DNA from: Desulfobacterales bacterium
GTDB lineage: Bacteria > Desulfobacterota > Desulfobacteria > Desulfobacterales > Desulfosalsimonadaceae
Assembly (NCBI GenBank): GCA_007134875.1
Contig: SLJY01000026.1
Coordinates: 1 to 56,812 of the forward strand
DNA length: 56,812 bases
Direction: 5' to 3'
A program made the position numbers and the translations under genes. A model generated the notes under the pieces. The model was not told the DNA's origin. It saw nothing but the letters and a program-made list of their open reading frames with translations, and ran no database searches. Below are positions 17,460 to 25,975 of this stretch, piece after piece; the stretch's first letter is position 1, and each line of letters begins with the position of its first letter.

Positions 17460-17489
17460 TTAAAGCGCCCTACGACCCGGGCGCTTTAA
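17460..17489. terminator. bidirectional hairpin between convergent genes
   Basis: TTAAAGCGCCC (17460-17470) and GGGCGCTTTAA (17479-17489) form a perfect 11-bp stem with an 8-base loop. It includes the stop codon of the minus-strand PaaK-like gene and lies 22 bases after the lipoprotein stop. The stem ends in A/T pairs that serve as short U-tracts in both directions. Confidence 0.75.
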
Positions 17490-18745
17490 CCGGATTGTCC
17501 TTTTTCCAAGAGGCGGATGGCCACCGCAACGCCTAGATCCTCCCGCAGGCGGTCTTCCGTTTTTCGGAGCAGCATTTCGATTTCCTTGATCTCATCCGAG
17601 AAGATTTCTTCGTTCATCGGGAGAAAAATTTCAAGAAATTTTCGGCCGTTGTCGTCATTTACCCGGCAGTTGACCTGTGCTGCGGATACGGGCAAACCGT
17701 CTTCTATTATGCTTACAACCTGCTGTCGGTGGATATTGACACCGTCTACTTTCATGATGTCATCGACGCGCTCGCTGAACCATTCGATTCTGGCAAGGGG
17801 GCTTTTGCAGGAGCACGGCTCCTCCATGATACGCGCCTTGTCGCCGGTCCGGAAACGAATGAGGGGAAAGGCGCGTGTGGTCAGCGTCGTGAGCACCAGT
17901 TCTCCGGGCTGCCCTGGTGGAATGACCTGCATGGTTTCCGGGTCGATGATTTCGGCTAGAAAGTGGTCCTCGTTGATGTGCAGTCCGCCGTGCATCTTGC
18001 ATTCAAACGCGATCGCCGGTCCGGGAACTTCGCTTAAGCCGTAATGCTCCCAGCATGTTACAAAAGCTTGCTCCCCGATGGTTTGACGGAGTTTATCCGA
18101 AATCTTTTCCCCTGCTGTAATGATCGTGTGGAGGTTCAGGGCGGCCGGACCGACCTGCATCCTGTGCATGTAGCCGGCAAGTTGAAGGGCGAATGCCGGG
18201 GAAGTGATCAGTACGGTGGTTTTGTAGTCGCGCAGCACCATGAATTGCTTTTCCGTGGAGAGCCACGTATTGGGGATCACGCTGACGCCCATGTCTTCCG
18301 CTGCGTCCTTGTAATTCCGGCCCCAGTTGGCAAGGCCGGGGTTGAAAGCGATCTGGAGGATGTCGTTGGGTGACACCGATGCCGCGGAAAGGGCCCGTCG
18401 GGTCATATGCCGCCAGTTGACCAGGTCCTGGGCCGTATACCCGCTGACGGTCGGGTTTCTCGATGTTCCCGGCGCCGTGTGGATGCGGACGATATCCCGC
18501 AAGGGAACGGCGAAGAGTTCATAGGGATAGTGCTCGTTGAAATCGGCCCGCTCCAGAAAGGGGAGTTTCGCCACGTCCGCAGCGGATTCAATCTGCCCCG
18601 GCTCGATGCCGGCCGCCTTCATACGCTGCCGGTGGAAGCTGACCTGCCGGAACGCACGGTTCAGGGTGCTCTGCAGCCTTTCAAGCTGGAGCTGGTGTTT
18701 GTCTTCCGGCGAATAGCTCAAAAAATCATCGTTGTTCATCGTCAA
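17486..18745 (-). CDS. PaaK-like AMP-dependent ligase with altered P-loop
   Basis: 419-residue member of the phenylacetate-CoA ligase family, related over its length to the canonical PaaK at 24265. The ATP-binding loop, SSGTTGxPT in active enzymes, reads APGTSRNPT (91-99), losing the Ser-Ser and Thr-Gly positions. Other regions are kept: HYGLSEVPGPAIAFEC, EIIDPET, PGELVLTTLTTRAFPLIRFRTGD and the C-terminal hinge ERVDDIMKVDGVNI. It may have weak or changed activity, or act on another acid. Its ATG lies inside the end of livF (20-base overlap, or 14 if MNNDD is the start), so it is the last gene of the liv operon and is coupled to livF. Confidence 0.78.
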   Translation of the reverse strand: MTMNNDDFLSYSPEDKHQLQLERLQSTLNRAFRQVSFHRQRMKAAGIEPGQIESAADVAKLPFLERADFNEHYPYELFAVPLRDIVRIHTAPGTSRNPTVSGYTAQDLVNWRHMTRRALSAASVSPNDILQIAFNPGLANWGRNYKDAAEDMGVSVIPNTWLSTEKQFMVLRDYKTTVLITSPAFALQLAGYMHRMQVGPAALNLHTIITAGEKISDKLRQTIGEQAFVTCWEHYGLSEVPGPAIAFECKMHGGLHINEDHFLAEIIDPETMQVIPPGQPGELVLTTLTTRAFPLIRFRTGDKARIMEEPCSCKSPLARIEWFSERVDDIMKVDGVNIHRQQVVSIIEDGLPVSAAQVNCRVNDDNGRKFLEIFLPMNEEIFSDEIKEIEMLLRKTEDRLREDLGVAVAIRLLEKGQSG

Positions 18746-19478
18746 ATTCCTCGTAGTCCTTGCCGAGATAGGCGCGTTTCACGTTCCGGTCGGAAAGCAG
18801 CTCATCCGCCTTTCCCTCCAGTACGACAGTGCCGGTTTCAAACACATATCCCCTGTCGGCAGCTTCAAGCGCCGCCCGGGCGTTCTGTTCCACCAGCACA
18901 ATGGTAAGACCCTTCCGGCGAAGCGTCTCCAGGACTTCCATAATTTTTTCCACGATAAGCGGCGCAAGCCCCATGGACGGTTCGTCCAGAAGAAGCAGCC
19001 GGGGTTTGGCCATCAGCGAGCGGCCGATGGCCAGCATCTGCTGTTCCCCGCCGGAAAGGGTCCCAGCCGGCTGGGTGAAACGCTCCGCGAGGATGGGAAA
19101 CAGGGCCGTGACCATCTCCATGGATTGCCCCACCTCTTCTTTTGCCCGCTGCCGCAACCGCGTGTATGCGCCCAGCCGCAGGTTGTCGTAGACGTTAAGC
19201 GGCGGAAAGATCAGTCTGCCTTCCGGGACGAGGCTGATTCCGGAGCGGACCACCGCCGGGGGATCCAGTCCCTTAATGCTTTTTCCTTCAAAGACAATCT
19301 CGCCGGTCCAGGAACGTAAAATGCCGCTGACGGCTTCCATCAGCGTGCTTTTCCCCGCGCCGTTGGCGCCGATAAGGGCGATGATCTCGCCTTGCTTCAC
19401 CGAAAGGCTGATTCCTTTCACGGCCATGATGCGGCCGTAGAAACACTTCAGATTGCGTATGCGAAGCATCGATTCCAT
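18726..19478 (-). CDS. livF: branched-chain amino acid ABC transporter ATP-binding protein LivF
   Basis: 250-residue ABC ATPase of the high-affinity branched-chain amino acid (HAAT) family. Walker A GANGAGKST (36-44), signature LSGGEQQMLAIGRSLM, Walker B LLLLDEPSMGLAP and the switch His replaced by the LivF-typical VEQNA. It pairs with LivG to power import through LivH-LivM. It is separated from livG by repeat F1-f, while its 3' end overlaps the PaaK-like gene. The substrate could be a branched-chain or aromatic amino acid, or an aromatic acid, given the ligase genes around it. Confidence 0.93.
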   Translation of the reverse strand: MESMLRIRNLKCFYGRIMAVKGISLSVKQGEIIALIGANGAGKSTLMEAVSGILRSWTGEIVFEGKSIKGLDPPAVVRSGISLVPEGRLIFPPLNVYDNLRLGAYTRLRQRAKEEVGQSMEMVTALFPILAERFTQPAGTLSGGEQQMLAIGRSLMAKPRLLLLDEPSMGLAPLIVEKIMEVLETLRRKGLTIVLVEQNARAALEAADRGYVFETGTVVLEGKADELLSDRNVKRAYLGKDYEEFDDEQR

Positions 19479-19498
19479 TTACAGTACCTTATATCGGA

Positions 19499-19695
19499 AT
19501 TTTCAAGTTTGACGGCTTCGTAAAAGTCCAATATCTGCGTTACGCCCAATTTCTCAGAATTTGCGGCTTACGCCTTGTAAACATACACGTACGCCAGGTA
19601 CGCTGCATTCTTCGAAATTGCGCAAGCCTTGTTCTTCAACTTTTTACAAAGCGGTCAGATCGCGACTTTTTACGAGTGCATCAAACTTGAAAATC
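19499..19695. repeat. 12-bp inverted flanks around repeat F1-f
   Basis: ATTTTCAAGTTT (19499-19510) directly before F1-f and AAACTTGAAAAT (19684-19695) directly after it are perfect reverse complements. The element thus sits in the centre of a palindrome. No direct target duplication is visible here. Confidence 0.75.
19511..19683 (-). repeat. dispersed repeat family F1, copy f (full length, long form)
   Basis: 173 bp: GACGGCTTCGTAAAAGTCC at the left, TTTTTACGAGTGCATCA at the right. It carries the extra internal segment (GCGGCTTACGCCTTGTAAAC) shared only with copy n at 44182, which has the same length. It lies between livG and livF inside the operon. Confidence 0.85.
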
Positions 19696-19702
19696 GATCA
19701 GA

Positions 19703-20512
19703 TTAGGTTTTAGCATCGTTTCGGGGTTTTCCGAGATATGCCGCCATCACGGCCTCATCATCCTGAACGGACCGCGGCGGTCCGTCTGCAATGAGGCGAC
19801 CCCGGTCCAGGACGATAATCCTGTCGCAGAGCTTCATGGTAAGGGCCATATCGTGTTCCACGAGCAAAACGGTTACGCCACGGCCCCGGATGCTTTCAAT
19901 CAGATCGCCAAGCATGTCCGTCTCGTTGGTATTGAGCCCTGCGGCCGGTTCGTCGAGAAGCAGCAGTTGGGGCTCAGATGCCATGGCGCGTGCGAGCTCC
20001 AGCAAACGCTGCCATCCAAGGGGCAGATCGGCGCTTCTGCGCTTCGCATGCTCCCCGAGGCCCACGAACTCGAGCAGTTGGGCAGCCTTTTCCAGCGACC
20101 GGTTTTCTTCCCGCACGATGCCCGGCGTACGAAGGGCGCTGCCGAAAATGCCGCACGACGTCCGGGTATGCATCCCCACCTGCACATTTTCCAGGACGCT
20201 CATGGAGGAGAAAAGCTCCACGTTTTGAAACGTCCGGGCAATGCCCATGCGAACCAGCTCATGGACAGGCTTTTTTCCGATGGGCTGCCCCATGAACAGG
20301 ATACGTCCGGAGTCCGGCGGGATTATTCCCGTTACCAGATTGAAAAGCGTAGTTTTCCCCGCACCGTTGGGGCCGATAAGGCCCGTGATGGATCCCGGGG
20401 CAAGGGAAAAATTGATGTCGATCAATGCCCGGACGCCTCCGAAACTGATGGACGCCGTTTCGATGTCGAGAATGGTATTATCACTGGTCATGTTTTTTCC
20501 GGCTGCTTTCAT
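19703..20512 (-). CDS. livG: branched-chain amino acid ABC transporter ATP-binding protein LivG
   Basis: 269 residues. Walker A GPNGAGKTT, Q-loop FQNVELFSSMSVLENV with the LivG insert, Walker B LLLLDEPAAGLN and switch VEHDM. The signature motif is LPLGWQRLLELARAMA, where most LivG proteins read LPYGxQRRLEIARAL. The annotated ATG overlaps the livM stop; an alternative ATG at 20491 (MTSDN) would reduce the overlap. It powers the same importer as LivF. Confidence 0.92.
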   Translation of the reverse strand: MKAAGKNMTSDNTILDIETASISFGGVRALIDINFSLAPGSITGLIGPNGAGKTTLFNLVTGIIPPDSGRILFMGQPIGKKPVHELVRMGIARTFQNVELFSSMSVLENVQVGMHTRTSCGIFGSALRTPGIVREENRSLEKAAQLLEFVGLGEHAKRRSADLPLGWQRLLELARAMASEPQLLLLDEPAAGLNTNETDMLGDLIESIRGRGVTVLLVEHDMALTMKLCDRIIVLDRGRLIADGPPRSVQDDEAVMAAYLGKPRNDAKT

Positions 20513-21437
20513 AAAGATCGATAATGCCGCGGGTCAGGCCCTGGGGCAGAAAAATCATCACGAGCATGAGGATCAAGCCGTAGACCATCATTTCGTAGTC
20601 CGCAAAGGCGTGCAGCCACTCCGGGAGGATCGTGAGCAGGGTCGCCCCGAAAAGCGAACCCCAGATGCTGGCCATTCCCCCGATAACCACCATGGTGACA
20701 ATCTTGATCGAAGCCATGAAGCCGAAGGTTTCCGGGCTGATGAAATAGACCTGGTGGGCATAGAGAAAACCCGCCAGAGATGCCATGGTCGCGCTCAGTA
20801 TAAAGATGTGCAGCTTCATCCTGGCCGTGTCGATCCCCATGGCCGAGGCCGCGTGCTCCCCGTCGTGGATGGCCCGCAGGGCGCGCCCCACCCGGGAGTC
20901 GATGATCCGCCGGCTGAGAAGAAAGAAAAAAAGGACCACTGCCCATACCAGGAAATAATAGCTGCGGTCCGTGTCGAAGGCAAAACCTGCGATTTCCAGG
21001 GGCGGAATGCCCACGAACCCGGATGCGCCCCCTGTAACGCTGTGCCATTCCCGGAAGACGATGCTGACGATCATCCCGAATCCCAGAGTGCCCATACCCA
21101 GGTAATAGCCGGTCAGCCGCAGGGTCGGCCTGCCGACGATGTAGGCGACGGCCATGGCCATGACAATGGCGGCCGGAAGGGCCAGCCACGGTGAAAATCC
21201 GTAGGTTGCCGACAAAACAGCGGTGGTGTAGGCGCCGATTCCGTAAAATGCAGCATGTCCCAAAGAGATCTGGCCGGCATACCCCATCAGGAGATTTAAG
21301 CTCAGGGCCAGCAGGGTGTTGATCCCGATGAAGATGAGCACCTGGAGGTAATAGGCATCGTCTGTCATGAGCCCGACCGCTGCGGCGCCTGCAGCGAAAA
21401 GGATGCATGCGATGGTGTGTTTGTCTGGCTTTCTCAT
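20481..21437 (-). CDS. livM: branched-chain amino acid ABC transporter permease LivM
   Basis: 318-residue inner-membrane permease of the HAAT family with about nine hydrophobic segments. Family marks: NLLMGYAGQISLGHAAFYGIGAY near 48-70, GMGTLGFGMI, and the cytoplasmic coupling region RRIIDSRVGRALRAIHDGEHAASAMGI that contacts the ATPases. It forms the pore with LivH. The gene ends inside livG and begins 2 bases after the livH stop, so the three are tightly coupled. Confidence 0.93.
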   Translation of the reverse strand: MRKPDKHTIACILFAAGAAAVGLMTDDAYYLQVLIFIGINTLLALSLNLLMGYAGQISLGHAAFYGIGAYTTAVLSATYGFSPWLALPAAIVMAMAVAYIVGRPTLRLTGYYLGMGTLGFGMIVSIVFREWHSVTGGASGFVGIPPLEIAGFAFDTDRSYYFLVWAVVLFFFLLSRRIIDSRVGRALRAIHDGEHAASAMGIDTARMKLHIFILSATMASLAGFLYAHQVYFISPETFGFMASIKIVTMVVIGGMASIWGSLFGATLLTILPEWLHAFADYEMMVYGLILMLVMIFLPQGLTRGIIDLYESSRKKHDQ

Positions 21438-21439
21438 GG

Positions 21440-22315
21440 TTAAAACCGTTTCACCGAGACTGCGCTGATAATGCCGCCCGGGCGGAAATACAGGACAAGC
21501 AGCAGCAGCAGGAAGGCCATTGCGTCCTTGAGGCCCGAGGAAATGAACCCGACGCCCAGTGCTTCGAGTATGCCAAGAAGAAACCCTCCCAGGACGGATC
21601 CCCAGAGGCTGCCCAGACCGCCCAGCATTGCCGCGCAGAAGCCTTTGAGGCCTAGCATGGTGCCCATGTCATAGGCGGGCATGGTAATGGGCGCGATGAT
21701 GGTGCCGGCGACGCCGCCCATGCCGGTGGAGATCCCGAAAGCCAGTAGGATCATGACCTTGAATGGAATCCCCACGAGCCAGGCTGCCTGTTTGTTGATG
21801 GCGCAGGCGTGCATGGCCTTGCCTGCAAGCGTTTTTTTGTAGAAAAAATGCAGGCTCCCCGCAATCAGCACCGATATGGTGATAATCCAGATGCTCTGCA
21901 TCAAAAGTCTCGCCCCCGCAATATCGATTGGCGGATGGGGGGTAAACGATGGCATGGCGTATGCATCCTTGCCCCATATCAGCATTGCCGTACCCCGTAG
22001 AAAAATCGATGCCCCCACAGTAATGATAATTAGCACGATGGGTTCCGGGCGTCGGACCGTACGAATGGCCAGCCGTTCGAATAGGAGTCCCAGGAAAGCC
22101 ACGCAAATGGTGGTCATGATTATGGCCGGCAGAACCGGTATCCTGAATCCCATGGTCAGGGTGACCATGGTGAGGGCCCCGATCATGACGAACTCGCCGT
22201 GGGAGAAGTTGATCAGATCGGTGGACCGGTAGAGCATGGAAAAACCCAGCGCGATGACACCGTAGATGGCCCCGTTGGTCATACCGGAGAAAAAATATTG
22301 TAGGAATTCCTGCAT
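21440..22315 (-). CDS. livH: branched-chain amino acid ABC transporter permease LivH
   Basis: 291 residues from the ATG at 22315 (MQEFLQYFFSGMTNGAIYG), the usual LivH start; the open frame runs on upstream to 22390 but that part is Pro/Arg-rich and lies over a hairpin. Typical segments: YRSTDLINFSHGEFVMIGA and GLKGFCAAMLGGLGSLWGSVLGG. It is the second membrane half of the importer. An intergenic hairpin 36 bases upstream separates it from the binding-protein gene. Confidence 0.92.
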   Translation of the reverse strand: MQEFLQYFFSGMTNGAIYGVIALGFSMLYRSTDLINFSHGEFVMIGALTMVTLTMGFRIPVLPAIIMTTICVAFLGLLFERLAIRTVRRPEPIVLIIITVGASIFLRGTAMLIWGKDAYAMPSFTPHPPIDIAGARLLMQSIWIITISVLIAGSLHFFYKKTLAGKAMHACAINKQAAWLVGIPFKVMILLAFGISTGMGGVAGTIIAPITMPAYDMGTMLGLKGFCAAMLGGLGSLWGSVLGGFLLGILEALGVGFISSGLKDAMAFLLLLLVLYFRPGGIISAVSVKRF

Positions 22316-22350
22316 GAATGGCCGTCCAATGCTTATTTGAGAGTCCGCCC

Positions 22351-22393
22351 TGCATGCGGGCACCTGCGGTGATGCCGGAGGTGCCCGCATGCA
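22351..22393 (-). promoter_or_regulatory. strong hairpin between livJ and livH
   Basis: TGCATGCGGGCACCT (22351-22365) and AGGTGCCCGCATGCA (22379-22393) form a perfect 15-bp stem around a 13-base loop. There is no following T-run, so it is more likely an mRNA-stabilising or partial-termination hairpin that keeps binding-protein mRNA more abundant than the permease mRNA, as known for other ABC operons. Confidence 0.6.
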
Positions 22394-22546: not shown

Positions 22547-23716
22547 TCAGTCCACGAGCTCCCATGTGCCGTCCTGGATGCGAACCATGACGAATGCATC
22601 CGGGGCAAGCCCGTTGTGATCGGTTTCGGAGAAATTGAACGTACCGCTGATGCCCACATGGTTTTCAATGTTTTCGAGGTTGTCCCGGATCTTGTTCTTG
22701 TCGCCGTCCGTCCCCTTCATCGCCTTGGCCAGAAGATTGATGGCGTCAAAAGCGTAGCCTCCGAATGCCGATGCGGGTTCCTGGAAGCGGGTTTCATAGG
22801 CCTCGATATAGTCTTTGAGAATCTGTTTCTGGGGATCGTCGTCCGGCAGGATGTCTGCCACCAGGATGCGCCCGGTGGGCAGCAGGATTCCTTCGGCCGT
22901 GTCACCGGCCAGGTCGATGAACCGGGGGGAGGCGACCCCGTGGCTCATGTAAAGCGGTATATCGATATCCAGTTGATCGATGTTCCTGGCGACCACGGCG
23001 GGGCCCGGGTTGGTACCCCAGCATATGATTGCATCCGGTTGGGCCCGGCGTATATTGGTGAGCTGGGCGGTCATATCCGTGTCGGACACCCCGAAGTTTT
23101 CCTGTACCACGAGTTCGAGGCCGAAGTCATCCGCCTGTTCGATGAGCTGGTCCCTGCCGCTTTCGCCGAAGGAATCCGATACGGTGATGATGGCAATCTT
23201 AGTGAGGTCGTTTTCCTGCAGGTGCTTGTAGATGCTGCTGACCGCGTGTATGTCGCTCTGCGCGGTCTTGAAAACCCAGGGCTTGATGGGCTCCGTGATC
23301 CGGTTTCCCGCAGCGCAGCTGATCATGGGTACCCGCGCCCGTTCTGCAACCGGTACGGCCGCAAGGGAGGTGGGCGTGAGGCTGGGGCCCACGATGGCGG
23401 TGACATTGTCGCGGTTGATGAGCCTGCGGGCGTTCATCACGGCACGGGATGGGTCTCCCTCGGTGTCGTAGATAACCGCCTCGAGCATCCGCCCGTCGAT
23501 GCCGCCGGCTTCGTTGATCTGATCGATGGCCATTGTCATCGATTTTCTTTCGGGATCACCCAGAAAGGATGCCGGTCCGGTCACGGAGAAGATCCCGCCG
23601 ATTTTGATGGGGTCTTTTGCGGAATCTGCCCCGGCCGGAGACGCCAGCATCAGGCAGGCTGCCGTGAGGATGCCCGCAATGATTGCTGTGATGCGGTGTT
23701 TGTTTTTCGATGACAT
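22547..23716 (-). CDS. livJ: branched-chain amino acid ABC transporter substrate-binding protein
   Basis: 389-residue periplasmic binding protein of the Leu/Ile/Val type I fold. The signal peptide covers about 1-30 (cleavage near SPAGA). Then DPIKIGGIFSVTGPASFLGDPERKSMTMAIDQINEAGGIDG, the classical opening of the family, and AIVGPSLTPTSLAAVPVAE, the first ligand-binding loop. It should deliver a hydrophobic or aromatic amino acid, or a related acid, to LivHM. It is the first transporter gene of the operon, 68 bases after the ACT-domain gene. Confidence 0.92.
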   Translation of the reverse strand: MSSKNKHRITAIIAGILTAACLMLASPAGADSAKDPIKIGGIFSVTGPASFLGDPERKSMTMAIDQINEAGGIDGRMLEAVIYDTEGDPSRAVMNARRLINRDNVTAIVGPSLTPTSLAAVPVAERARVPMISCAAGNRITEPIKPWVFKTAQSDIHAVSSIYKHLQENDLTKIAIITVSDSFGESGRDQLIEQADDFGLELVVQENFGVSDTDMTAQLTNIRRAQPDAIICWGTNPGPAVVARNIDQLDIDIPLYMSHGVASPRFIDLAGDTAEGILLPTGRILVADILPDDDPQKQILKDYIEAYETRFQEPASAFGGYAFDAINLLAKAMKGTDGDKNKIRDNLENIENHVGISGTFNFSETDHNGLAPDAFVMVRIQDGTWELVD

Positions 23717-23784: not shown

Positions 23785-24216
23785 CTACATGGCATAGAGC
23801 CTGTCGCCGTCAATGATCTCCGCGCCGTTTTCGGAAAGGATGCGCGCCGCTTCGTCGATTTTATCGAACCGGAAGATCATGACGGCGTTGTCGCCGCTTT
23901 GCTGAACGAATGCATACATGTATTCCACGTTGATCCCGTTGCGGGTCAGTAAATCGAGAATGCCGTGGAGTCCGCCGGGCCGGTCGTTGACCAGTGCCGC
24001 GACCACGGGGGTTGTCTTGACCGTGAACCCGCCTTGCTTCAGGGCGCTTTCGGCTTTTTCGTTGTCGTCCACGATCAGCCGGAGCACACCGAAATCCGAG
24101 GTGTCGGCCAGGGACAGGGCCCGGATGTTTACCCCGGCATCCGACAGGATCCCGGTTACCTCGGACAGCCTGCCCGCCTTGTTTTCAAGAAAAATGGATA
24201 TCTGCTGTGCCTGCAT
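23785..24216 (-). CDS. tandem ACT-domain protein
   Basis: 143 residues made of two ACT domains: QQISIFLENKAGRLSEVTGILSDAGVNIRAL at the front and TPVVAALVNDRPGGLHGILDLLTRNGINVEYM in the second half. The GRL/GGL turns are the usual amino-acid-binding sites between subunits. No catalytic domain is attached. Such proteins are commonly next to phenylacetate-CoA ligase and indolepyruvate oxidoreductase genes in anaerobes and probably sense an aromatic or branched-chain amino acid. It lies 48 bases after the paaK gene. Confidence 0.9.
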   Translation of the reverse strand: MQAQQISIFLENKAGRLSEVTGILSDAGVNIRALSLADTSDFGVLRLIVDDNEKAESALKQGGFTVKTTPVVAALVNDRPGGLHGILDLLTRNGINVEYMYAFVQQSGDNAVMIFRFDKIDEAARILSENGAEIIDGDRLYAM

Positions 24217-24264: not shown

Positions 24265-25566
24265 CTACAGTTTCCGGCGATCGATCACCCGGGCGGCTTT
24301 GCCTTCGCTCCGGGCGATGGTCTTGGGTTCGGCGAGCTTGACACTGGCCGACACGCCCAGGGTTTCCTTGATGTTATTTCGAATGGTTTCGCTCAGGCGC
24401 TGCAGCTCCTTGACCTCATCGGAAAACGCCGAATCGCTGATTTCAACCCGGACGGTCAGGACATCGAGGTTGTCCTTGCGGTCCACCTCGAGTTGGTAGT
24501 GGGGCTCCACGCCCCGTATTTCCATAAGCACGCTTTCTATCTGAGAGGGAAATACGTTAACGCCCCGAATGATCAGCATGTCGTCGGTCCGGCCGCTTAC
24601 CTTGTTCATCCTGGCCATGGTCCTTCCGCAGATGCACGGCTCCGGATTGAGCGAGGTGATATCGCGGGTCCTGTAGCGAATGACCGGGAAGGCTTCCTTT
24701 GTGATGGAGGTGATGACCAACTCCCCGGTTTCTCCCCAGGGAAGCGGCTGGCCGGTTTCCGGGTCGATGATTTCGGGGATGAAGTGGTCTTCGAAAATGT
24801 GCAGCCCGTTTTGCGCTTCATGGCACTCCATCGATACGCCCGGCCCGATCACTTCGCTCAGTCCGTAGATATCGACAGCCTTGAGATGAAGCTTTTCCTC
24901 GATCTCCCGCCGCATGCTTTCGGACCATGGCTCCGCGCCGAAAATGCCGAAGCGGAAATTGAGATCCCGGAATGAAACGCCCATTTCGTCGGCCGCCTCG
25001 GCCAGATGGAGGGCGTAGGAGGGCGTTGCCGTCATAATGCTTGGTCCGAAATCCTTCATGATGATTACCTGGCGGCGGGTGTTGCCGCCGGAGACCGGTA
25101 TGACCGAGGCGCCGAGTTTTTCGGCGCCGTAATGTACGCCCAGTCCCCCGGTGAAAAGCCCGTAGCCGAATGCGTTGTGTATGATATCCCCCCGGGTCGC
25201 TCCGCCCGCGCTCAGGGAGCGTGCCATGAGCTCCGCCCACGTATCGATGTCCCGGGCGGTGTAGCCCACCACGGTGGGTTGGCCGGTGGTGCCCGACGAG
25301 GCGTGGATCCGGACGACATTGTCCATGGGCACGGCGAACATGTTGAAGGGATAATTGTGCCTCAGGTCCTGCTTGGCGGTAAAGGGCAGGCGCGACAGGT
25401 CTGAAAGGGATCTGACGTCACCGGGTTTGACCCCTGCGTCGTCAAGTTGTTTTCTGTAGAACGGAACCGCGGCATAGGCGCGCGAAAGTGTTGCCTGCAA
25501 GCGCCGGAGCTGGATCGATTCCAGTGCTTCCCGGGGCATGGTTTCGTATTCGATGTTGAAAATCAT
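24265..25566 (-). CDS. paaK: phenylacetate-CoA ligase
   Basis: 433 residues from the ATG at 25566, chosen because AAAGGACGAAACGG precedes it; the frame runs upstream to 25635 but through the leader hairpin. The adenylation P-loop SSGTTGQPT (90-98) is intact, with GYTARDI after it, [42 protein letters not shown] and the C-terminal domain [21 protein letters not shown]. It activates phenylacetate or a similar aryl acid to its CoA thioester with ATP. It is the first gene of the ligase-ACT-Liv operon and has an unusual leader (25636-25750). Confidence 0.93.
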
Positions 25567-25635
25567 CCGTTTCGTCCTTTGCGGCTTGGGTGTGCGGAAA
25601 ACAAAAATGGCCGGGGGCGGGCGCCCCACGGCCAT

Positions 25636-25678
25636 AAAAAAGAAAAACCACGGGCGACCCTTGCGCGTCTTCCCATGG
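25636..25678 (-). terminator. terminator arm of a paaK leader attenuator
   Basis: On the minus strand, CCATGGG (from 25678) pairs with CCCGTGG (to 25648) across a 17-base loop with one G-U pair. It is followed directly by TTTTTCTTTTTT (25647-25636). This is a good intrinsic terminator about 70 bases before the paaK start codon. Its 5' arm is also part of the long-range stem at 25667-25750. Confidence 0.65.
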
Positions 25679-25750
25679 CATGCTCATGATCCGGCTGGCA
25701 GATTTTTACCTGTCGCTTATGGTGCCGATCCGGCCGATGCATGGGAAGAC
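25667..25750 (-). promoter_or_regulatory. candidate structured leader RNA (antiterminator or aptamer) of paaK
   Basis: GTCTTCCCATG (minus strand, 25750-25740) pairs perfectly over 11 bp with CATGGGAAGAC (25677-25667), enclosing 62 bases that contain two CCGGATC copies and a small CAGGTAAAAATCTG fold. This stem and the terminator share CATGGG, so only one can form. It does not match any riboswitch class whose core I know. Confidence 0.55.
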
Positions 25751-25835
25751 CTTCTAAAAAAGAAGAAGTCCCCGAAATCCGCCGGGCGGGCTGGCAGTTT
25801 GCTCATGGCCTTGATTACCCGGTTATGGTCTATTG

Positions 25836-25874
25836 AATGCCTGAACGAAAACCCCTGATTTTCGTTCAGGCATT
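25836..25874. repeat. perfect 16-bp palindrome derived from F2 ends
   Basis: AATGCCTGAACGAAAA and TTTTCGTTCAGGCATT enclose a 7-base loop. The arms are the F2 terminal sequence without the F2 body. It lies between the crotonase stop and the paaK leader in a 409-base gap; there is no T-run, so it is not a simple terminator. Confidence 0.7.
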
Positions 25875-25975
25875 ATTTGTGTTGTTGGGTTTCAAATGCG
25901 CAGTGAAACGAAATCCTCCAAAGCGCATGTTGTTCCTGTCTAAACGGATGGACAGCCGATGTCAAGAAAAAAAAA

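Follow-up and report, generated by a model that had tools for sequence, protein, structure and literature searches.

A very probable phenylalanine transcription attenuator with a his-like six-segment relay in front of a paaK-ACT-liv cluster in Desulfobacterales

The pheL leader of E. coli and other gammaproteobacteria combines a short ORF containing runs of Phe codons with alternative hairpins and an intrinsic terminator, and it is controlled by Phe supply. The his leader follows a six-segment scheme, in which the pairings A:B, C:D, and E:F are set against B:C and D:E. Attenuation has reportedly been surveyed further by Seliverstov, Lopatovskaya, and Lyubetsky, whose work may touch on Desulfobacterota. 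The accessible portion of PMC1183508 lists pheA among the attenuator operons and describes the his leader of Salmonella and E. coli as rich in regulatory codons, with an extra hairpin lying after the pause hairpin and before the terminator, and that of PMC3766115 cites Vitreschak et al. 2004 for Phe and Ile/Val attenuators in proteobacteria. On the metabolic side, the accessible portion of PMC4162585, citing Porat et al. 2004, describes how Methanococcus maripaludis forms aromatic amino acids from aryl acids via indolepyruvate oxidoreductase (IOR). In the accessible open-access literature, we found no description of a Phe attenuator in Desulfobacterota or before paaK and none of an attenuation regulon for aromatic amino acids in the phylum; the former holds for the accessible portions of PMC3766115, PMC5343134, PMC4833913, PMC5109826, PMC1183508, and PMC4162585, and the search terms do not occur in that of PMC2965389. 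The class of mechanism proposed below is known, and its lineage and operon context are without an earlier description that we found.

The window analyzed here is a stretch of 56,812 nucleotides from a Desulfobacterales bacterium (contig SLJY01000026.1 of assembly GCA_007134875.1). On its minus strand lies a cluster in the order crotonase, leader, paaK, ACT, livKHMGF, and paaK2, with the following features.

25937-25965, minus strand: likely sigma-70 promoter by sequence, TTGACA (25965-25960), 17 nt, TAGACA (25942-25937)
24265-25566, minus strand: paaK-like aryl-CoA ligase (TIGR02155, 635.7 bits, just below the curated cut-off of 646.3)
23785-24216, minus strand: ACT-domain pair protein (PF19571)
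22547-23716, minus strand: livK-type substrate-binding protein (family match)
18726-22390, minus strand: four ABC-transporter ORFs with homologues in the same order in relatives, which we provisionally take from their sequence to be livH, livM, livG, and livF
17486-18745, minus strand: second PaaK-like protein (paaK2), end of the cluster (profile matches)

The likely promoter lies directly past the upstream crotonase gene. Its -10 match is weak, a consensus promoter scan called none at 25937-25965, and TTGACA is, by eye, similarly placed in several relatives. For paaK, the likely start is the ATG at 25566, with AAAGGACG upstream; relatives use the same codon (MIFNIEYE...), which favors it over the start at 25635 given by the ORF finder. 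Gene order is kept in relatives with the leader (e.g., L034, L040, L049, and L055) and in relatives without it (L037, L041, and L042), and the livK homologue is preceded by its own leader copy in some of them. A 39-base near-perfect palindrome (AATGCCTGAACGAAAA...TTTTCGTTCAGGCATT, 25836-25874) between the promoter and the leader ORF looks like a dispersed REP-like repeat. A query containing it gave 51 matches in the window's own genome at E values up to 1, a count that includes its own place, may take both strands of one place separately, and contains many partial matches. By eye, the close relative L033 lacks the palindrome at the corresponding position.

The whole leader element spans approximately 25806-25598 and is made up as follows.

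25717-25806, minus strand: leader ORF of 29 codons by coding signs, MSKLPARPADFGDFFFFRRSSHASAGSAP and a stop codon
25756-25767, minus strand: four Phe codons in a row, TTC TTC TTT TTT (regulatory codons), directly 5' of the stem
25762-25774, minus strand: segment 1, pairs with segment 2 (hairpin 1:2, which includes Phe codons; six pairs between segment 2 and the upstream sequence in the window)
25740-25750, minus strand: segment 2, 5' arm of the antiterminator (pairing)
25679-25739, minus strand: variable loop between segments 2 and 3 (length and identity)
25667-25678, minus strand: segment 3, 3' arm of the antiterminator and 5' arm of hairpin 3:4 (pairing)
25648-25656, minus strand: segment 4, pairs with segment 3 (3:4) or segment 5 (4:5) (pairing)
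25636-25647, minus strand: T5CT6 run after hairpin 3:4 (sequence)
25622-25633, minus strand: segment 5, pairs with segment 4 (4:5) or segment 6 (5:6) (pairing)
25609-25619, minus strand: segment 6, 3' arm of the second terminator hairpin (pairing)
25598-25608, minus strand: T-rich run ATTTTTGTTTT after hairpin 5:6 (sequence)

A preliminary description of this DNA had reported an 11-bp stem that shares an arm with a terminator hairpin ending in a U5CU6 run, and these elements are present where it placed them, with conserved pairing. The minus-strand sequence GTCTTCCCATG (25750-25740) perfectly complements CATGGGAAGAC (25677-25667) over 11 bp, enclosing 62 bases, and CCATGGG (25678-25672) can alternatively pair with CCCGTGG (25654-25648); the T5CT6 run (25647-25636) comes right after the latter. 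Three parts of the element had been missed: the Phe-rich leader ORF, a hairpin 5' of the stem, and another hairpin that has a T-run of its own (25633-25598). A simple terminator scan listed this next hairpin (25628-25612) and did not list the U5CU6 hairpin, because the loop of the latter is longer than the scan allows; the T-rich run at 25598-25608 is a possible main termination point. Folded alone, 25750-25667 reaches -31.3 kcal/mol (z = -3.14, equaled by 3 of 200 shuffles). The longer stretch 25765-25622 is unremarkable (z = -1.40, with 19 of 200 shuffles as good), so that energy alone is insufficient and conservation carries the claim.

Covariance model A2, built from 12 leaders, gave 76 hits at E values up to 0.01 in 71 of the 389 genomes of the order, spread over 32 of 150 genera. 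Conserved pairing among homologous leaders, which the preliminary description had itself named as one of two tests of its reading, was looked for in this set and found. Helix 2:3 is 98.0% paired over the 76 aligned leaders, and 8 of its 12 pairs show double changes, a level that none of 500 shuffles reached; these figures come from alignment A3, which was fitted to the 2:3 structure, while the three that follow come from alignment A4, made without structure. Pairing reaches 93.1% in helix 3:4 and 94.7% in 5:6, and double changes affect 3 of 8 and 7 of 9 pairs, respectively. Helix 4:5 is 90.1% paired and holds 35 double-change cells (0 of 500 shuffles), although the number of its pairs with a double change, 3 of 9, shows no excess over the 3.5 of the shuffles, most pairs varying on one side. 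Among the first 12 leaders, there were zero double changes in 2:3 and 3:4, because these leaders are too alike; the wider set showed them. Hairpin 1:2 forms at least five pairs in 73 of 74 leaders, with a mean of 7.6 pairs versus 5.2 when the upstream sequence is shuffled, and it overlaps the regulatory codons upstream of the antiterminator, as is characteristic of attenuators.

These helices alternate with one another. Of 72 leaders, 63 adopt 2:3 together with 4:5 if segment 1 is omitted and segment 6 is still to be made, and 68 adopt 3:4 together with 5:6 if segment 2 is omitted; with segment 6 absent, 4:5 has at least five pairs in 64 of 72. Antiterminator and terminator are mutually exclusive, as in an attenuator, and the comparisons support a predicted set of five alternating helices (1:2, 2:3, 3:4, 4:5, and 5:6). 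The opposition of 4:5 to both 3:4 and 5:6 is that of a his-like six-segment relay, but 5:6 wins in the minimum-energy fold of the window: at full length and with segment 1 masked, 2:3 forms, yet 5:6 persists. It follows that 4:5 must act kinetically before segment 6 is made or that the first T-run matters. The inverted repeats might also be taken for a DNA-binding site or for chance palindromes, with no RNA switching, and most relatives do carry a CCATGG palindrome within segments 2 and 3. Given the compensatory changes in 2:3, 4:5, and 5:6, the T-runs, and the recurrence of the alternative folds in 63/72 and 68/72 leaders, we regard the chance of this being so as practically negligible. The conserved pairing and the alternative folds instead support a transcription-attenuation leader for paaK-ACT-liv, in which the stem is an antiterminator that excludes the downstream hairpin, much as the preliminary description had proposed.

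What drives the switch is suggested by the sequence just upstream. In the expected frame of 75 leaders, the 14 codons upstream of segment 2 are 41.7% Phe, 6.8% Tyr, and 0.3% Trp, while the other two frames reach 20.2% and 15.7% Phe, owing to the T-rich DNA; the expected frame is the one highest in Phe plus Tyr in 70 of the 75. At least four Phe/Tyr codons occur in the most Phe/Tyr-rich ORF of 74 of 76 leaders, although the script behind this count picks the richest ORF and sets some starts too far upstream, and the frame test is less biased; in the remaining two model hits, L138 and L160, the script found no Phe/Tyr-rich ORF. Among 293 leader pairs from different genera that share at least 7 of 11 residues, there were 502, 546, and 1,098 differences at codon positions 1, 2, and 3, respectively, and 619 synonymous versus 419 nonsynonymous single-base codon differences, counts that are descriptive and carry no test because leader pairs are not independent. 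An SD-like motif precedes 33 of 71 leader starts versus 17 of 213 control windows. The upstream FFFF reading frame is kept in relatives from the genus and family (YFFF in one), and the peptide cores are FGNFFFF in the window's family and GFFFRKS in other families; leader peptides differ strongly among families, and the richness in Phe/Tyr codons stays. By its coding signs, then, a short leader ORF enriched in Phe codons appears to lie in front of the switch, as expected of a Phe-type attenuator. A different leader peptide, with its start within the stem (ATGCATCGG for the window and ATGGATCGG for relatives), was considered as well and rejected, as its frame shifts among relatives and L014 has a stop at the fourth codon.

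The short conserved cores, FGNFFFF and GFFFRKS, could point to arrest by the nascent peptide, in which FGxFFFF, acting from within the ribosome along with free Phe or an aryl metabolite, would cause the stall, and a shortage of tRNA would play no part. The strong divergence of the peptides between families with retention of Phe/Tyr codon richness speaks against this, as does the fact that the RKS/SHG residues are encoded by and next to segment 2, so that RNA pairing explains them. A similar leader before aroF-pheA, moreover, carries another peptide, and we hold arrest of this kind to be highly improbable.

A second candidate for the trigger was the 62-base part enclosed by the stem, in which the preliminary description had suspected an aptamer for an aryl acid, an aryl-CoA, or an amino acid that would stabilize the outer stem. 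A small-molecule riboswitch would indeed present antiterminator and terminator folds that exclude each other ahead of a metabolic operon. The enclosed part is, however, the least conserved stretch of the leader, with 31.5% identity versus 81 to 87% for the arms among the 76 leaders and 38.3% versus 95 to 97% among 12 leaders of the near family (a gap against a letter counting as a difference), and its length varies: 73 of 74 leaders fall between 34 and 60 nt, and one has 9 nt. An Rfam scan of the window at gathering thresholds found no family matching the leader, and a permissive scan of 25560-25960 gave three subthreshold matches, none of them relevant, which agrees with the earlier view that the leader does not fit the TPP, FMN, glycine, lysine, cobalamin, SAM, fluoride, c-di-GMP, or THF classes. 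Neither scan matched the T-box model or the gammaproteobacterial Phe leader, which we take to be an Rfam family. With a variable loop and no Rfam class, there is no sign of the conserved aptamer core of a metabolite riboswitch, and conservation is found instead in the Phe-codon ORF with its excess of synonymous change. A riboswitch thus seems scarcely credible to us, and the aptamer reading was dropped on account of the loop variability and the coding signal. Of the earlier reading as a whole, the attenuation leader with mutually exclusive folds stands and the ligand trigger with its aptamer falls; the trigger is most likely a ribosome on the Phe-codon leader ORF, with no small ligand.

We consider it very probable that this is a transcription attenuator of the ribosome-mediated kind, specific for Phe and partly for Tyr, with a his-like six-segment relay; it would sense charged tRNA-Phe and probably charged tRNA-Tyr in addition. 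The sequence basis for this is the ORF, its codon bias, the excess of synonymous change, the conserved pairings, and the gene context, and we infer from it that the leader is translated, that the ribosome stalls, and in which direction the system responds. As RNA polymerase transcribes the leader, its ORF would already be under translation by a ribosome. When Phe is plentiful, the ribosome would run through, hairpin 1:2 would re-form or the ribosome would cover segment 2, and segment 3 would pair with 4, leaving 5 for 6, so that transcription would end at the T-runs. In the window, the leader stop codon (25719-25717) lies about 20 nt past segment 2, inside the variable loop, so that a ribosome paused there would not necessarily cover segment 2, a point against this scheme. 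When charged Phe-tRNA is scarce, the ribosome would stall on the Phe codons and cover segment 1, segment 2 would pair with 3, leaving 4 for 5, and the terminator would be weakened, allowing transcription of paaK-ACT-livKHMGF-paaK2.

After the 76 hits, the next gene is paaK in 66 cases, livK of the same transporter in 8, and a gene for a DAHP synthase-prephenate dehydratase (aroF-pheA) in 1, and the remaining hit is at a contig end. All hits with an examined downstream gene thus lie before aromatic-metabolism or cotransported genes, with no off-target hit among the 75 identified. The 66 PaaK ORFs are 67 to 100% identical to the window's protein over the aligned part, and identity for the 8 livK ORFs is 60 to 65%. 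Copies directly before livK were seen at L150, L152, L157, L158, L161, L163, L164, and L111. In G047, G114, G326, and G346, paaK and livK each have a copy in front, perhaps as separate attenuators of a single split operon.

When 36 genomes of the family were searched at the DNA level, strong, near-full-length matches came from the window's own genome and four others of the genus, and a shorter strong match came from another genus; the sequence inside the stem is variable among these relatives. A protein search of a species-level genome collection gave 51 loci, 24 of them paaK loci of Desulfobacterota. By inspection of up to 480 nt upstream, the leader is present at 10 of the 24, much diverged at one of these (L045), and absent at 14. 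Given these leader-free loci and the 318 of 389 genomes of the order without a model hit, the leader is, as far as the genomes indicate, not essential to the operon. In the diverged copy before paaK at L045:7380-7640, the peptide has no FFFF run and the arms are mainly cut to CCATGG. It gave no match when offered to the covariance model, and it is perhaps a case of attenuator loss under way.

Related leaders were also found before genes for aromatic amino acid synthesis. In 10 of 16 prephenate dehydratase loci of the order, of which only L181 (the same place as L165) is known as a covariance-model hit, a peptide ending in RFFFxFRSVHP or close to it is encoded upstream, for example, MFFFSFRRFFFIFRSVHPVILL before its stop. 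The gene was a DAHP synthase-prephenate dehydratase-ACT fusion in all three of these loci that were tested. A second model, built from the 76 leaders and searched in 395 genomes of the phylum, had hits in 66 of them. Among the best 29 of the 67 listed hits outside its own set, 14 lie before paaK, with a TPR gene in between in one (L200), and 15 lie before DAHP synthase (L195, L198, L199, L201-L205, and L207-L213). Several of the latter leaders mix Phe, Tyr, and Trp codons, as in MDRPQIFNNLGWWFYFYYWGGVCPWAGKT (with stop) from L208, and such leaders could possibly sense all three aromatic amino acids at once.

The cluster, whose first gene (paaK) takes its name from phenylacetate activation, appears to be tied to phenylalanine shortage, and this wiring of the leader suggests that the cluster helps to obtain phenylalanine rather than to degrade aromatic compounds. 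A supply role fits the similar leaders before aroF-pheA and DAHP synthase and is plausible for paaK-ACT-liv, for which we infer it as part of the best explanation. Phe or aryl acids would be taken up and activated to aryl-CoA, followed by reductive carboxylation by indolepyruvate:ferredoxin oxidoreductase and transamination. The regulation would be just as consistent with a transporter that imports Phe or Tyr directly. IOR, which could carboxylate aryl-CoA, is present in the window's own genome (alpha subunit by model and beta by eye), and the alpha model matched strongly in 45 of 46 leader-bearing genomes, in 40 of them above the curated cut-off, counts that cover leader-bearing genomes alone and are descriptive. 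In the window's own genome, an ORF that by eye resembles a pyridoxal-dependent decarboxylase (L092:3054-4769) converges on iorAB.

The same attenuator could instead merely fine-tune a catabolic operon for Phe or phenylacetate degradation. The accessible portion of PMC5109826 assigns CoA ligases and IOR of Desulfococcus multivorans to phenylacetate/phenylpyruvate catabolism, which counts against the supply role, although the uptake and ligase genes it names (a TRAP system and FadD4) differ from those here in a comparison by name only. A Phe-codon attenuator switches on at Phe-tRNA shortage and is ill-suited to an operon that degrades Phe, and aroF-pheA and DAHP synthase have similar leaders; a catabolic role is on balance unlikely. 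We also considered whether the genome might lack pheA and depend on aryl-acid salvage. A search for prephenate dehydratase gave nothing in the window's own metagenome-assembled genome (89% complete) or in G001 and G003 of the same genus, which are also incomplete, but the gene is present in 335 of 389 genomes of the order, including G002, G004, and G005 of the same genus. The absence was taken as incompleteness, and the idea was dropped.

Returning to the supply role, we see an evenly poised case for a phylum-wide regulon in which attenuation would join synthesis by aroF-pheA/DAHP synthase with aryl-acid salvage by transporter, PaaK, and IOR. The branched-chain-type ABC transporter would import phenylacetate, other aryl acids, or Phe/Tyr, PaaK would form the CoA ester, and IOR would carboxylate it to the aryl-pyruvate precursor of Phe/Tyr. 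If the leaders before aroF-pheA and DAHP synthase work alike, the phylum would have an attenuation regulon for aromatic amino acids, and if such a regulon exists, genes labeled "phenylacetate-degrading" would be biosynthetic in many environmental Desulfobacterota. The leader gives the paaK-ACT-liv clusters of many uncultured Desulfobacterota a testable role.

Compared with known systems, the leader would belong to the same class of mechanism as the proteobacterial amino acid attenuators of Vitreschak et al. 2004, as far as the accessible portion of PMC3766115 conveys them. It shares with the aryl-acid route of M. maripaludis the presence of IOR in leader-bearing genomes, aryl-acid salvage being a proposal here; M. 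maripaludis differs in being an archaeon, and the accessible portion of PMC4162585 mentions no attenuator. Like the leader of pheA (pheL), the element has a Phe-codon ORF, alternative hairpins, an intrinsic terminator, and predicted control by Phe supply. Unlike it, the element occurs in another lineage and before paaK-ACT-liv (similar leaders also lie before aroF-pheA), mixes in Tyr codons, and, in the window, has a longer hairpin relay and no Rfam match. Compared with the his leader, Phe/Tyr codons replace those for His and the genes are others, whereas the many regulatory codons, the extra hairpin, and the six-segment relay are held in common.
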